From a virus: DNA of 23,037 nucleotides. Positions 3,212 to 23,037 of the stretch are shown here, piece by piece. The notes beneath the pieces are model-generated. The model made no database searches. It had not been told where the DNA came from and was given only the letters and a program-made list of their open reading frames with translations. The stretch is taken from the IMG/VR virus record IMGVR_UViG_3300031862_000046, positions 1 through 23,037 of that record; one strand, written 5' to 3'. Each line of letters starts with the position of its first letter. The stretch's first letter is position 1. Both the position numbers and the translations under genes were made by a program.

Positions 3212-4037
3212 GCGCACCCTGATGCGGGCCTTCCTCGACGCGGCGCTCCCCCCTGGAGCGGCCTGGCAGCCAAAGCCCGGGGGAGACCTGGACCGCCTCC
3301 TCGATGGCCTTGGGGATAACGCGCTAGTGGTGCGCGATTTCCTGGCGAACCTGGCGCGCGTGCGCGATCCCTGGACCACGCCGTATCTGGATGAGCTGGA
3401 GCGGGAGTACGGCGTCAGCCCCAACGTCCAGCTTACCGCGGCTCAACGGAGGGCCACGCTTGCCCTGGTGAAATACGCGCGCCGCAGGCGGGGCACGCGG
3501 GATGACTTGCAGCAGGCCCTCGATCGGGCGGGGCTCGGCGCCGGAGGCTACGGCCTTCATGTCTATATAAATGATCCCCCTGTCGATCCGGGGCCATACA
3601 TGAACTACGCCTTCATCACAATGGCCGGAGAGGCGGATGCCCTATGCGGATACTACACGAGCGGTCCGATACTCGCGGTGGCCGGAGTGAGCGGCGGCCT
3701 CTGGGTAGTAAATGGAGACGTGTTCATCCCGACGCTGCCCAATTACCTGGGTTGCGGAGACCCGGCGATGCTCTGCGGCTATATCCCCGCGGGCGGCAAC
3801 AAGATCATGGCCGAATGCGGCATCTATTACACGCTGAGCTATATGCCCATCGAGTACGACTCTCCGCCGGAGAGCTGGATGTGGCCGCTGGTATTTTTCA
3901 TCGCCAAGGAGGGCGGCACGCTCGCCGATCTACAAATGGCGCAGATCCCGGATAATCAGAGAGCGGCGCTCATCGAGCTAATCATGCGCTACAAGCCGCT
4001 GGGCACGTGGTGCGCGCTACTGGTGACGTTTAGCTAA
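3204..4037 (+). CDS. Mu gp48-like baseplate protein (DUF2313-type)
   Basis: A 277-aa protein. The N-terminal third, with ALPPGAAW, the LDELEREYGV motif and LALVKYARRRRGTRDDLQQA, matches the pattern of Mu gp48/YmfQ-type baseplate proteins. These have a tail-hub-proximal helical domain followed by a variable receptor-side part. The middle is rich in Cys-Gly-Tyr (for example LCGYYTSGP and GCGDPAMLCGY), also common in this family. It overlaps the gp47-like gene by 8 bases and precedes the fibre gene. It is somewhat longer than Mu gp48, so the C-terminal half may be an adaptor domain for the fibre. Confidence 0.75.
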   Translation: MSERTLMRAFLDAALPPGAAWQPKPGGDLDRLLDGLGDNALVVRDFLANLARVRDPWTTPYLDELEREYGVSPNVQLTAAQRRATLALVKYARRRRGTRDDLQQALDRAGLGAGGYGLHVYINDPPVDPGPYMNYAFITMAGEADALCGYYTSGPILAVAGVSGGLWVVNGDVFIPTLPNYLGCGDPAMLCGYIPAGGNKIMAECGIYYTLSYMPIEYDSPPESWMWPLVFFIAKEGGTLADLQMAQIPDNQRAALIELIMRYKPLGTWCALLVTFS

Positions 4038-4049
4038 TGGGAGGATACG

Positions 4050-4892
4050 ATGATTGATTTCGTGACGGGTCAGGGCGGGAACATCATCGGGAGTTACCCG
4101 AACGTGTTGGCCAAGAACACATCCGGCGCGGGGGCCACTGACGGCACGGCGCTGCTGGCCAACTGGGTCAGCAACCTCTGGGGCATGGTCCAGGACCTGA
4201 TGCAGCGCGCGGGACTCACGCCCTCGGGGGTCGCGGAGCAGTACGCGGCGGAGACCGGGGCGCTGCCGCTGGGCACGACCTCCACGCAAGCGCGCACGGC
4301 CCTGCAGATGGCTTTCGGCTCGCCAGGGGAGCTGGTGCTCTGGTGCCGGAATCAGGCGCCGGCCACGGTCGGCGCGCGCATCCTGCTACTGCAAGGGCAG
4401 ACCATTGCCATCGCCAACTACAAGGACCTGGTGGCCGCCACCTACTGCGGGGACGCGCTCAACAACTACGCTGACGTCCCGTTCTACAAGTCCAGCGACT
4501 CCGGGGGCGCGACCCGAAATACGGCGGGTACCTACTTCACTCTGCCCGATGCGCGCGGCGTGACGATCCGGGGCATCGACATCGGCGAGACGCGCGACCC
4601 TCAGGGCAACCACCGCGGCGGCACCAACCCGAACAACTATCCCTGCGGGAGCATCCAGCTGTACGCGATGCAGGGGCACTGGCACGAGGTTGTTGATGAT
4701 TCTAGCCATTATGAGGGCTATAGCACGACGGGGCGCGCGGCAGGAGACCCGGGCGTTGCATGGGCAGCGTCGGACAACTCGACGCGAGTTAAGGCCAGAA
4801 CAGCGCAAACCGATGGCGTAAACGGCACCCCGCTCACGTCGAGCGAGACCCGCATGATTAACATGGCCGCTTACATCGGCATCCGGTATTAG
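4050..4892 (+). CDS. Tail fibre protein with phage tail-collar-type domain
   Basis: A 280-aa protein. The ATG at 4050 is preceded by GGGAGG. Residues about 90-180 follow the tail-collar layout: GELVLWCRNQAP, a region describing a length of fibre around ILLLQGQTIAIANYKDLV, then YFTLPDARGVTIRGID, which is the classical LPD-x-RG motif. Collar-domain proteins are short distal fibres that contact the cell surface. The C-terminal part contains GHWHEV, the His-x-His type motif seen in metal-binding short fibres, and ends MAAYIGIRY, a typical fibre tip ending. It follows the baseplate genes, as in Mu (gene S position), and is likely a host-range determinant. Confidence 0.85.
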   Translation: MIDFVTGQGGNIIGSYPNVLAKNTSGAGATDGTALLANWVSNLWGMVQDLMQRAGLTPSGVAEQYAAETGALPLGTTSTQARTALQMAFGSPGELVLWCRNQAPATVGARILLLQGQTIAIANYKDLVAATYCGDALNNYADVPFYKSSDSGGATRNTAGTYFTLPDARGVTIRGIDIGETRDPQGNHRGGTNPNNYPCGSIQLYAMQGHWHEVVDDSSHYEGYSTTGRAAGDPGVAWAASDNSTRVKARTAQTDGVNGTPLTSSETRMINMAAYIGIRY

Positions 4893-19325: not shown

Positions 19326-19507
19326 GGGCAAAGTGGCGGCCCCGGCAAGGAGATGGAATCCGGAGCCGCCGGAATCAGGTGCGTATTGCCAGATGCGTCA
19401 TCGGATTTCATGCTCGGCTTCATAAAAACGCTCGACCTTGTTGGTTTTCTCGCGCGGCATGGCTCACTCGCTGCGATTGGTTTTCTCCTATTTTCTGGCT
19501 CACTCAT
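19322..19507 (-). CDS. Possible 61-aa gene translated across array 3
   Basis: The ATG at 19507 lies next to the tas stop, and the stop overlaps the next start (ATGA). The first 26 residues (MSEPENRRKPIAASEPCRAR and on) are encoded by the third TIGR-like array, read in a different phase from arrays 1 and 2 because the in-phase codon would be TGA. The rest is Pro/Ser-rich. It may be a coupling frame rather than a functional protein. Confidence 0.4.
   Translation of the reverse strand: MSEPENRRKPIAASEPCRARKPTRSSVFMKPSMKSDDASGNTHLIPAAPDSISLPGPPLCP
19425..19505 (-). repeat. TIGR-like array 3 (short, at the 3' end of tas)
   Basis: Plus strand: GGTTTTCTC (19443-19451), 9-nt spacer, GGCTCACTC (19461-19469), 9-nt spacer, GGTTTTCTC (19479-19487), 9-nt spacer, GGCTCACTC (19497-19505). 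The 18-nt half period equals that of arrays 1 and 2. A degenerate AAAACGCTC at 19425-19433 extends it. Spacers are GCGCGGCAT, GCTGCGATT, CTATTTTCT and probably GACCTTGTT; all end in T before GG. The last repeat contains the tas stop codon. Confidence 0.75.
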
Positions 19508-20291
19508 GCTTCTTCCCGAGGTATTCCTCCGCATACGGCGGGCGCACTTTGCGCCCTTCTAGCGCCGCACGCGCGTTCACATAGTCTATGAGCATCTCCT
19601 GGACCGCGCGCCGGATCGCCGCATTCCGCCGATGCCCGGGCCGCGCATCTTTCCAGGGGATCTTCTTTGCGCCGTTGATCTTGCTGCGCTCTAATACTTC
19701 GCGGTCGCTATTCGCATAACGCTCCTTGATGCCGAGATAGATCGCATGGTATTTGCTCTCGCACGACTCACCCAATTTTTCCAGTGACATGCCCCATTGA
19801 TAGAGCTGCGACTTGAGGGAGGCGCAATATTTCCGCTTGCCGGGCGCGTTCTTATCCTCGGCAGGCCCATATCCGCAGAAACGACGGACCTTGCTGATGA
19901 CCACGCGCCCTTGATTGTCACTCGCTTCCTCCAAGTCGACCAGCGCCTCCAAATAGGCGATGGTGATCTCGCCCATGGGTTTGACCGCAACCGCCCATTC
20001 CGTCCAGATCGGAAGCTGATGCGCAAGATCGGCGATTTCCTTCTTGATTTCATCCGCCCATGTATCGCTTTGCGCCAGCAGACCTTCCATGCGCTGCTTA
20101 TATTCAGATGTAAGCACATAAGGGGTAGGGCGCTTCTGCTCCTCGCCGTCACGCTTCAACTTCAGCGCGTTTCGATAGCCCGTCTGCCAGCGCTTATAGT
20201 GTGTGTAATCCCGCACTAAGACTTTCAGCCTCGCGCGGATTTGCTCCTGATCGCTAGCCGGGGCAGCGATCGCTATGCTTGTGCTGCTCAT
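19500..20291 (-). CDS. Tas-like protein, Nop/IS110-C-terminal type without nuclease domain (TasA-like)
   Basis: A 263-aa protein. Residues about 15-90 are helical. Residues 104-142 (PMGEITIAYLEALVDLEE, then ISKVRRFCGYG) resemble the helix-hairpin-helix-like part of the IS110/IS116 transposase C-terminal domain. Residues 152-260 continue the resemblance: LKSQLYQWGMSLEK, YHAIYLGIKERY, the Gly-His start of GHRRNAAIRRAVQEMLIDYV and the PPYAEEYLG ending. That domain is structurally related to the Nop domain of box C/D RNP proteins and of Tas proteins. No RuvC or HNH nuclease part is present, so it would bind the guide RNA and DNA without cutting. Arrays of 9-nt spacers flank it. The start overlaps the ParB-like stop, with GAGGAG upstream. 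Confidence 0.75.
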   Translation of the reverse strand: MSSTSIAIAAPASDQEQIRARLKVLVRDYTHYKRWQTGYRNALKLKRDGEEQKRPTPYVLTSEYKQRMEGLLAQSDTWADEIKKEIADLAHQLPIWTEWAVAVKPMGEITIAYLEALVDLEEASDNQGRVVISKVRRFCGYGPAEDKNAPGKRKYCASLKSQLYQWGMSLEKLGESCESKYHAIYLGIKERYANSDREVLERSKINGAKKIPWKDARPGHRRNAAIRRAVQEMLIDYVNARAALEGRKVRPPYAEEYLGKKHE

Positions 20292-21028
20292 TTGTCACTC
20301 TCCTCGTTTAAGATTTTGCCGATTATATCGGCTAGGATTTCGAGGACGCGACGCGCATCCGCCCACGCCGCCGGCACCAGGTTTTGCAGCCGTTCGACGT
20401 GGAAGCGGATGGCGTTACAGATAGGACGCTCTAGAAGACTGGGTGTCTCGCTTTCTGCGGCTCGCTCCACGCGGGCGGGTATCTCTCTTTTTTCGGATCG
20501 CTCTATTATGATGGGTGTCTCTTGCGCAGCGGTTCGCTCTCTCGTGCCGGATATCTCAGTCTCTTCGGCTTCTTCTTCTGTCGATTCCATGCGAATCATG
20601 CCCTGGTCGATGCGTTCCGCATGCTCCGTGGTCAGCCGCAAGAGTTTGCGGGCTTCGCTCTTTGAGAAGCCCAATTCCCGCGTAAGGCGCATATAGAGCG
20701 CCCCGATCTGCCCAATAGTGTAGTTGCGAGCATTCTTGATGTTGCTCTCGATGGCAACAGTGAATCTTGATGATTCGTCTGGGCAGTCGGCGACGGCGAC
20801 CTTGATCTCCTCGTCATGGCCGTTGAAAGCTCGCGCCCAAGCCTCATGCCGGTCAAATCCGTCGAGCAGAAGATAGCGATCACCGGCCTTGCACACAATC
20901 ATAGGCGGTGGATATTCGCCGAGACCGATCAGCTCTACGATCCTGTTGATATCCTCGGGATTGGTGGGCCGCGTTTTGTAATGCTCGTTTGCTTCGATCT
21001 CACTGAATCGGATGATCTGCTCTATCAT
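20288..21028 (-). CDS. ParB-like (ParB/Srx fold) protein carrying TIGR-like array 2
   Basis: A 246-aa protein with GGAGG 5 nt before its ATG. The N-terminal 110 residues follow the ParB/Srx pattern: a strand with RFSEIEANEHYKTRP, then a conserved pocket with YPPPMIVCKAGDRYLLLDGF and the DRHEAW motif. A helical part with LTRELGFSKSEARKLLRL suggests a DNA-binding helix-turn-helix. Residues 152-202 are encoded by array 2 (ERT, ETP, ERS, EIP, ERA, ETP). A short helical C-terminus follows. ParB-fold proteins bind CTP or act as nucleases; which applies is not visible. Linkage to tas may be functional. Confidence 0.75.
   Translation of the reverse strand: MIEQIIRFSEIEANEHYKTRPTNPEDINRIVELIGLGEYPPPMIVCKAGDRYLLLDGFDRHEAWARAFNGHDEEIKVAVADCPDESSRFTVAIESNIKNARNYTIGQIGALYMRLTRELGFSKSEARKLLRLTTEHAERIDQGMIRMESTEEEAEETEISGTRERTAAQETPIIIERSEKREIPARVERAAESETPSLLERPICNAIRFHVERLQNLVPAAWADARRVLEILADIIGKILNEESDK
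20423..20575 (-). repeat. TIGR-like array 2 (inside the ParB-like gene)
   Basis: An 18-nt half-period array like array 1 but with diverged repeats. On the plus strand, GGNTCGCTC at 20459, 20495 and 20531 (degenerate copies at 20423 and 20567) alternates with GGGTGTCTC, GGGTATCTC, GGGTGTCTC and GGATATCTC at 20441, 20477, 20513 and 20549. Eight 9-nt spacers lie between. It is in frame with the ParB-like protein. Confidence 0.8.
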
Positions 21029-21037
21029 GGCTCCTCC

Positions 21038-21787
21038 TTAAGAACGCTCGCTTGACACGGGTGACTCGATTTTTTTGGCTCGCTCCAAGCTCGTGGGTGA
21101 CTCGATTTCCATGGCTCGCTCACAATCCGTGGGTGACTCTATACATGTGGCTCGCTCATAGCTCCTGGGTGACTCTTGACTTTTGGCTCGCTCATTAATG
21201 ACGGGTAACTCCGGCTCCATGGCTCGCTCGTATGTATTGGGTAACTCTTTAGGCATGGCTCGCTCCTCTCGTCTGGGTGACTCCTTCGCGATGGCTCGCT
21301 CACTACGCGTGGGTGATTCTACTAAGCTGGCTCGCTCAGTTATTTTGGGTGACTCTTTTAACATGGCTCGCTCGTGTGCCTTGGGTGACTCCGCCACATT
21401 GGCTCGCTCGCATTGCCTGGGTGACTCGTCTATGCCGGCTCGCTCATTTTTAGTGGGTGACTCTTCTAAAGTGGCTCGCTCGCAAACCATGGGTGACTCT
21501 TTCATGCCGGCTCGCTCGATCAAGATGGGTGACTCTGGGTTCCTGGCTCGCTCATCTACGATGGGTAACTCTTTCAGAATGGCTCGCTCATATTTTTTGG
21601 GTGACTTAAATCCTCTGGCTCTCACTAAATGCGTATTCCCATCAGGCGTGTTGAACCATAGCGCCAATTCGCCATCCGGCAGCCGCGTAAAGCAATCCAT
21701 CAGGCTGCGCTTGCCGGCGCAGGGCCGGATGGCGCCATGGCGACGGCGGGCCCTGCGAATGAGCCGAGCTCTCCAATCATTGGCCAT
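21038..21787 (-). CDS. Short phage protein fused in frame to TIGR-like array 1
   Basis: The ATG at 21787 overlaps the end of the ribbon-helix-helix gene and has GGAG-like bases upstream. Residues 1-54 form a small phage-type domain: a basic helix (ANDWRARLIRRARRRHG) followed by a DCFTRLPDGELALWFNTPDG beta-hairpin. From residue 55 to the stop (249 aa in all) the protein is array 1 read as 12-residue units, Glu-Arg-Ala-x3-Glu-Ser-Pro-x3, repeated 16 times. The unit codons are constant (GAG CGA GCC) while the x residues vary freely. The array part is unlikely to be a folded domain. The frame may exist only to keep the operon translated. Confidence 0.6.
   Translation of the reverse strand: MANDWRARLIRRARRRHGAIRPCAGKRSLMDCFTRLPDGELALWFNTPDGNTHLVRARGFKSPKKYERAILKELPIVDERARNPESPILIERAGMKESPMVCERATLEESPTKNERAGIDESPRQCERANVAESPKAHERAMLKESPKITERASLVESPTRSERAIAKESPRREERAMPKELPNTYERAMEPELPVINERAKSQESPRSYERATCIESPTDCERAMEIESPTSLERAKKIESPVSSERS
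21041..21625 (-). repeat. TIGR-like array 1: 32 nine-nt spacers in a 36-bp period
   Basis: The plus-strand unit is GGCTCGCTC, N9, GGGTGACTC, N9. GGCTCGCTC is identical in 15 consecutive copies, 36 nt apart from 21077 to 21581, with degenerate copies at the ends (21041, 21617). GGGTGACTC occurs 16 times from 21059 to 21599; five copies differ by one transition (GGGTAACTC at 21203, 21239 and 21563; GGGTGATTC at 21311; GGGTGACTT at 21599). All 32 spacers are exactly 9 nt and distinct, although nearly all end in T (C in a few) before GG. The 36-nt period equals the reported length of mature tigRNAs with two spacers. Orientation of the guide transcript is not certain; the operon is transcribed on the minus strand. 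Confidence 0.9.
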
Positions 21788-21962
21788 CGCCGCCCGCCTT
21801 CTCTCCAGCCTGCCGCCGTTCATATTCGGCCAATCCGAGGCCGACGAGGATCTCCGCCTGCCTGCCAATCCCCCGGTTCTCGCTTTTGGCGATCTTGAGC
21901 ACCCGCGCGCGGAGCTTGGCCGGTAAGCGCACCGGAATGTAGCTATATTTTCTGCCGCTCAT
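21777..21962 (-). CDS. Ribbon-helix-helix (Arc/CopG-type) regulator, first gene of the early operon
   Basis: A 61-aa protein. The N-terminal strand (YSYIPVRLPAKLRARVLKIA) and the helix that follows (IGRQAEILVGLGLAEYERR) match the ribbon-helix-helix layout. The start lies 8 nt after the -10 box of a strong promoter, so the message may be leaderless. A palindromic operator sits in the promoter spacer, and its twin lies at the divergent promoter, so this protein is a good candidate to control both. The end overlaps the array-fusion gene. Confidence 0.82.
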   Translation of the reverse strand: MSGRKYSYIPVRLPAKLRARVLKIAKSENRGIGRQAEILVGLGLAEYERRQAGEKAGGDGQ

Positions 21963-21970
21963 CAGTCTGG

Positions 21971-21999
21971 AGTATAGTCCACACTTGTGGTCTTGTCAA
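21971..21999 (-). promoter_or_regulatory. Early leftward promoter with operator
   Basis: Minus strand: -35 TTGACA (21999-21994), 17-nt spacer, -10 TATACT (21976-21971). The spacer holds the inverted repeat CCACA-CT-TGTGG (21979-21990, plus strand). It drives the whole minus-strand operon down to the helicase as far as can be seen; no other good promoter was noticed inside. Confidence 0.85.
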
Positions 22000-22863: not shown

Positions 22864-22995
22864 GTCCTTGCAAAAGTTCTTGCAGATTTCTGGCTTGGGT
22901 GGCGAACATGGCAAAAAAGGCAAAAAAATAGCCCTTTTCCGGCACAAATGGCCCTTATGTTGGCTAATTTCGCAGTTGGCAACTACTTTGGGCGC
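22864..22995. other. Non-coding att-proximal region
   Basis: About 130 bases between the last gene and the tRNA fragment. It is A/T-richer than the rest, with two TTGCA copies (CTTGCAAAAGTTCTTGCAGA) and A-rich tracts (GGCAAAAAAGGCAAAAAAATAG), as would suit integrase or host-factor arm sites. I see no convincing gene and no clear terminator. Confidence 0.4.
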
Positions 22996-23037
22996 CTGTT
23001 AATCACTAGGTCGGAGGTTCGAGTCCTTCCGGGGGAG
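22996..23037 (+). tRNA. 3' part of a tRNA-Asn (anticodon GTT), probable attachment-site core
   Basis: Anticodon loop CTGTTAA (22996-23002, anticodon GTT), 3' anticodon strand TCACT, variable AGGTC, T-arm GGAGG-TTCGAGT-CCTTC (23013-23029), acceptor CGGGGGA (23030-23036) and discriminator G. The bases 5' of the loop (GGCGC) do not pair with TCACT, and no TCCCCCG acceptor strand lies upstream, so the 5' part is absent. This is the usual structure of the duplicated tRNA end at a prophage boundary. Confidence 0.8.

Follow-up and report, generated by a model that had tools for sequence, protein, structure and literature searches.

A probable phage TIGR-TasA-TasParB locus with a guide array in frame within its tasParB gene

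Introduction

What kind of system is encoded at positions 19425–21625 of the viral record IMGVR_UViG_3300031862_000046 (IMG/VR), where short alternating repeats and a gene for a 263-amino-acid protein occur together? The record was analysed over its full length of 23,037 nucleotides (nt), hereafter the window, to which all coordinates refer. A preliminary description, made from the sequence alone, had proposed an RNA-guided system resembling TIGR-Tas (tandem interspaced guide RNA and Tas protein), a type of system described in 2025. According to the main text of Faure et al. (2025; PMC12045711), TIGR arrays start and end with half-edges and have boxes that are common to their edge and loop repeats, as we observed for base 10 of the repeats. 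In the systems studied there, processing takes place in the middle of the edge and requires Tas, one tigRNA is bound per Tas dimer, the two spacers lie on opposite strands and the DNA is strongly bent. Furthermore, operons in which tasParB precedes tasA and arrays surround the two genes have already been described in the section of that paper on parB-like genes. Our computational analysis indicates that the locus is likely to be a phage TIGR-TasA-TasParB system, including a proposed guide maturation and a proposed feedback through an array, A2, which lies within tasParB. The proposal of a TIGR-Tas system was right but understated; it had missed the identity of TasParB, two further arrays (A2 and A3) and the fact that A2 is coding in frame.

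Results

The alternating repeats were found where the preliminary description had placed them. The exact edge-spacer-loop pattern gave 15 matches in the window and none in 100 shuffles, and a looser box pattern gave 36 matches, again with none in the shuffles. The repeats form three co-oriented arrays with 22 units in total, within an operon on the minus strand whose order is a ribbon-helix-helix gene, A1 (16 units), tasParB, tasA (263 amino acids) and A3 (2 units). Its main features are:

21045..21620, minus strand: array A1, 16 units, each consisting of half-edge AGCCR, spacer A (8 nt), loop GAGTCACCCR, spacer B (8 nt) and half-edge GAGCG
20288..21028, minus strand: tasParB, coding for 246 amino acids, with a ParB N-domain, an array-encoded linker and C-terminal helices (phrog_1033, E 1.4e-4; TasParB relatives; ParB fold)
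20427..20570, minus strand: array A2, in frame within tasParB, with 4 complete units that encode the low-confidence part of the protein model
19500..20291, minus strand: tasA, encoding a Nop-domain protein without nuclease (PDB TasH sequences, E 1.5e-14; model and fold matches)
19429..19500, minus strand: array A3, 2 units with loop GAGAAAACCA, the first unit starting with the final base of the tasA stop codon

Read from position 21620 downward, A1 is an unbroken succession of 16 units of the form AGCCR-N8-GAGTCACCCR-N8-GAGCG. The 36-nt dual-repeat unit that had been proposed was retained, but not its division into 9-mers with 9-nt spacers, because the tenth base is a purine in every A1 repeat (A in 27 and G in 5 of the 32). 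The repeats GAGCGAGCCR (edge) and GAGTCACCCR (loop) are thus 10 nt long and, like those of the SpTIGR array, are separated by 8-nt spacers, making up a unit of 10+8+10+8 = 36 nt. The 15 invariant copies of GAGCGAGCC reported earlier do exist and correspond to the complete edges of A1, the array itself having exactly 16 units. With their half-edges, A1, A2 and A3 contain exactly 16.0, 4.0 and 2.0 units, respectively; the edges are truncated at the array borders, A1 and A2 beginning with AGCC and all three arrays ending with GAGCG. A2 and A3 have the same boxes as A1. The loop repeats differ among the three arrays (GAGTCACCC, GAGACACCC and GAGAAAACC), their boxes being identical.

The array of Salicola phage CGphi29, which has edge AAGCGAGCCA, loop AAGACAACCA and 8-nt spacers, is situated on the gene strand, and the edge of the window (GAGCGAGCCA) differs from that of CGphi29 by one base. 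This near identity, together with the orientation of the CGphi29 array, settles which strand gives the guide RNA in the window and where the repeat borders lie; the guides are on the minus strand, as are the genes.

The 263-amino-acid protein matched PHROG 4285 (E 1.7e-13), TasH of Salicola phage CGphi29 and, using phmmer, the solved TasH chains in PDB (E 1.5e-14). Its predicted structure, for which similarity to Nop and IS110 domains had been anticipated, was modelled with 30 aligned sequences taken from loci fetched for comparison (labelled below by L-numbers such as L127 and L126), with a mean predicted local distance difference test score (pLDDT) of 90.3. The expected similarity was found: Foldseek returned TasH first (E 2.8e-12), TasR next (E 1.4e-6) and then IS110 recombinases, and the corresponding VIA-align Z values were 22.0, 17.5 and 14.6. 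The Nop coiled-coil helices begin at residue 14, and a Pfam search of the protein gave no match, nuclease domains included. Because there is neither an HNH nor a RuvC domain ahead of the Nop domain, the protein is of the TasA subtype, in agreement with the earlier assignment as TasA-like and nuclease-less. PHROG labels the family as transposase and IS110 is the third-best fold match, which could point to a remnant of an IS110-type transposase accompanied by unrelated repeats. Such an origin is scarcely conceivable, since TasH and TasR are the better matches, the array belongs to the SpTIGR type and a DEDD/RuvC domain is lacking; the alignment with IS110 covers the Nop-like part only (residues 10–245 of the TasA model to 121–314 of IS110), and a protein of 263 amino acids leaves no room for the DEDD RuvC-like N-terminal domain of these recombinases. 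Single-protein searches of viral contigs revealed no close relatives of TasA or TasParB, and no TasA was found in plasmids.

A1 had been described as lying beside the gene of the 263-amino-acid protein; it adjoins a ParB-like gene instead, and tasA comes after that, its start overlapping the tasParB stop (ATGA). The product of the ParB-like gene matched PHROG 1033 and has a ParB/Noc fold (Foldseek E 4e-7), and its C-terminal helices align with those of other TasParB proteins. This neighbour is the known TasParB, and the same family also precedes tasA in L025, L037, L099 and L101.

A2 runs in frame through tasParB and codes for approximately residues 154–201, a segment that separates the ParB core from the C-terminal helices; in the TasParB model, residues 146–191 have a pLDDT under 50 and are predicted to form a disordered linker. 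In 20,000 synonymous recodings of tasParB that followed the codon usage of the phage, the observed chain of seven repeats was never reached, the longest chain being five. The GAG and CCR boxes are unchanged in all seven complete A2 repeats, while the encoded residues vary. The failure of recoding to rebuild A2 and the fixed boxes amid varying residues show that selection keeps the RNA pattern within the coding sequence. Constraint on the nucleic acid, claimed earlier for the repeats, is thus demonstrable even inside a gene. Furthermore, the presence of four exact units with both half-edges suggests that A2 is a working array. It might alternatively be a relic, a captured array piece whose processing has ceased and whose sole remaining role is that of a flexible linker in the protein. 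The edges and loops of A2 are indeed more variable than those of A1, and a linker of this predicted disorder would tolerate almost any sequence. We regard a relic as unlikely, however, because all of the variation falls between the intact box motifs and because the array, with its exact number of units and both half-edges, is destroyed by synonymous recoding.

A second alternative is that the repeats represent a protein motif (ERA...ESP), the nucleic acid pattern being a by-product. A1 and A2 are both open in the frame GAG CGA GCC, and in high-GC genomes most matches to the pattern are ERA-rich coding runs without tas. Yet the middle codons of the A2 repeats encode R, T or I, and S, T, P or A occurs as the third residue, whereas the boxes are fixed; the codons include CGA, ACA and ATA, which are rare; and arrays abut tas in one orientation. 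In addition, 119 tas-linked arrays showed no overall loss of stop codons in the GAG frame (158 seen versus 167.6 expected). A protein motif is therefore a very improbable explanation, and in view of the lack of a general stop loss we make no claim of coding for arrays as a class.

Three further features belong to the beginning of the operon:

21971..21999, minus strand: candidate sigma-70-like promoter, TTGACA-17-TATACT, ahead of the operon (11/12 in a consensus scan; consensus match only)
21777..21962, minus strand: small ribbon-helix-helix (Arc-like) regulator, the first gene of the operon (phrog_3431, E 4e-4)
21038..21787, minus strand: possible open reading frame (ORF) of 249 codons, assigned from ORF and frame; its start overlaps the regulator stop and it is open across all of A1

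The 249-codon ORF spans the 16 units of A1 in frame and stops just before tasParB. As estimated by column shuffles, the chance of A1 being without a stop in this frame is 0.003–0.017, and a search for relatives of the ORF product found none. At the end of the window, positions 22970–23037 resemble the 3' portion of a tRNA gene, with an anticodon loop CTGTTAA and a GTTCGA arm, and perhaps represent a provirus attachment site; ARAGORN reported no whole tRNA there.

An independent scan of viral contigs, which used the array pattern alone and no protein information, yielded 120 stretches among the matches listed, of which 87 contained a tas gene. Across all fetched loci, every tas-linked array (197/197) was on the tas strand, and the box bases of edge and loop agreed at position 10 in 85 of 89 loci and at position 1 in 72 of 89.

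In-frame arrays were also detected in other phages. The most striking case is L127 (911–1984, plus strand), in which tas, with a full-length product of 357 amino acids, is interrupted in frame by approximately 15 repeats situated between the two halves of the Nop domain, both of which are recognized by the same profile; the insert is flanked by two CxxC pairs (CMAC ... CKNC), and relatives with 35–48% identity are without it. In L126, four units follow directly after a start codon right behind tasParB, and the tas start may lie later. An array is located in the tail of a RecT gene in L061 and in a regulator with multiple helix-turn-helix motifs in L008; no known relative was found for the C-terminal part of the L008 protein. 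Recoding tests backed L127, L126 and L008, and L061 less strongly. Other candidates were rejected or considered weak: in L020 and L031 the recoding test was not clear, in L134, L138 and L094 there was no recognizable flanking domain, in L083 the start falls after the array, and in L018, L137 and L189 it may do so.

Discussion

The defining features of TIGR-Tas that computation could settle, namely a Nop protein, a dual-repeat array, half-edges and shared boxes, are all present in the window, and the architecture of the locus, the fold, the strand, the unit borders and the constraint on A2 were likewise established by computation. Several observations weigh against the reading as a TIGR-TasA-TasParB system. 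TasA is divergent: its branch is long, none of the relatives found is more than about 33% identical to it, and its exact position in a sequence tree is unsure. Although T5 lies directly 3' of A3, a terminator scan recognized no hairpin there, a rho-independent terminator being typical but not strictly defining. Some A2 edges (GAGCGAACC and GAGCGATCC) differ from the A1 edge by one middle base, and A2 may therefore be less active. Finally, for the target search, 800 and then 997 distinct units were compared with 1.1 and 1.8 Mb of loci, allowing both arrangements, gaps of up to 4 and at most 1 mismatch, with swapped pairs as controls; paired-spacer matches were not above these controls in the 1.8 Mb, beyond which true targets may lie. 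An excess of the B-A arrangement on the same strand with gap 1 (90 versus 51) was traced to two low-complexity chance arrays.

Compared with the TIGR-TasA-TasParB operons in the main text of PMC12045711, the window has the same tasParB directly before tasA, the same 10-nt dual repeats around them, a nuclease-less Nop protein and a phage genome. It differs in that arrays are described in that text only upstream of, downstream of and between the genes, whereas a four-unit array lies within tasParB in the window. The same main text makes no statement of an array inside a coding sequence, one of which may be shown in supplementary fig. S14; thus, the in-frame coding array A2 looks new in what is otherwise a further TIGR-TasA-TasParB locus. 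SpTIGR-TasH of phage CGphi29, which was experimentally tested according to the main text of Faure et al. (2025; PMC12045711), shares 9 of 10 edge bases, the 8-nt spacers, an array on the gene strand and a homologous Nop domain (28% identity) with the window, but CGphi29 TasH has an HNH nuclease domain, in place of which the window has a protein without nuclease and TasParB. The IS110 recombinases IS621 and ISCro4 share the Nop-like RNA-binding fold; in contrast to them, the system in the window has no DEDD catalytic domain and no bridge RNA, and carries guide arrays instead.

By analogy with the known systems, the polycistronic transcript would be cut in the middle of the edge (GAGCG/AGCC), yielding tigRNAs of 36 nt that each contain two 8-nt spacers. 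One such tigRNA would be bound by a TasA dimer, its spacers A and B would pair with opposite DNA strands, and a site of about 16 bp would be opened and sharply bent by TasA rather than cut. With less certainty, TasParB may modulate the TasA-bound site or spread from it, and the system may block transcription or replication of competing elements, or regulate genes. As four of the 22 units are in frame in tasParB, a single RNA would act as mRNA and as a source of guides at once. Given that guides mature only with the help of Tas, an increase in TasA would be expected to cleave the tasParB-tasA message within A2, upstream of tasA, and thereby to limit TasA synthesis.

If this is true, guide arrays within protein-coding genes, including that of the effector itself, would add a new principle to RNA-guided systems, guide production would be coupled to message cutting in a simple feedback loop, and arrays would have a route for settling in new genes. 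Gene callers can conceal such arrays within hypothetical proteins. Extending this to the other phages, we propose tentatively, as a possibility that may well not hold, that TIGR arrays can be dual-function, lying in frame in tasParB, tas and other phage genes, where Tas-dependent maturation would cut the message and feed back on the system or on the gene carrying the array.

The fetched loci showed some further variation. TIGR-Tas loci were present in metagenome-assembled genomes of Spirochaetota, Acidobacteriota and Dehalococcoidia (L151, L170, L176, L189 and L212), those of Spirochaetota and Dehalococcoidia carrying TasParB. A Tas protein of 718 amino acids in L082 (618–2774, minus strand) has Hint and LAGLIDADG domains and represents an intein within Tas. 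In L091, two closely related tas genes (1563–2441 and 3215–4123, minus strand) with alternating arrays are located behind a TasParB gene in one phage locus.
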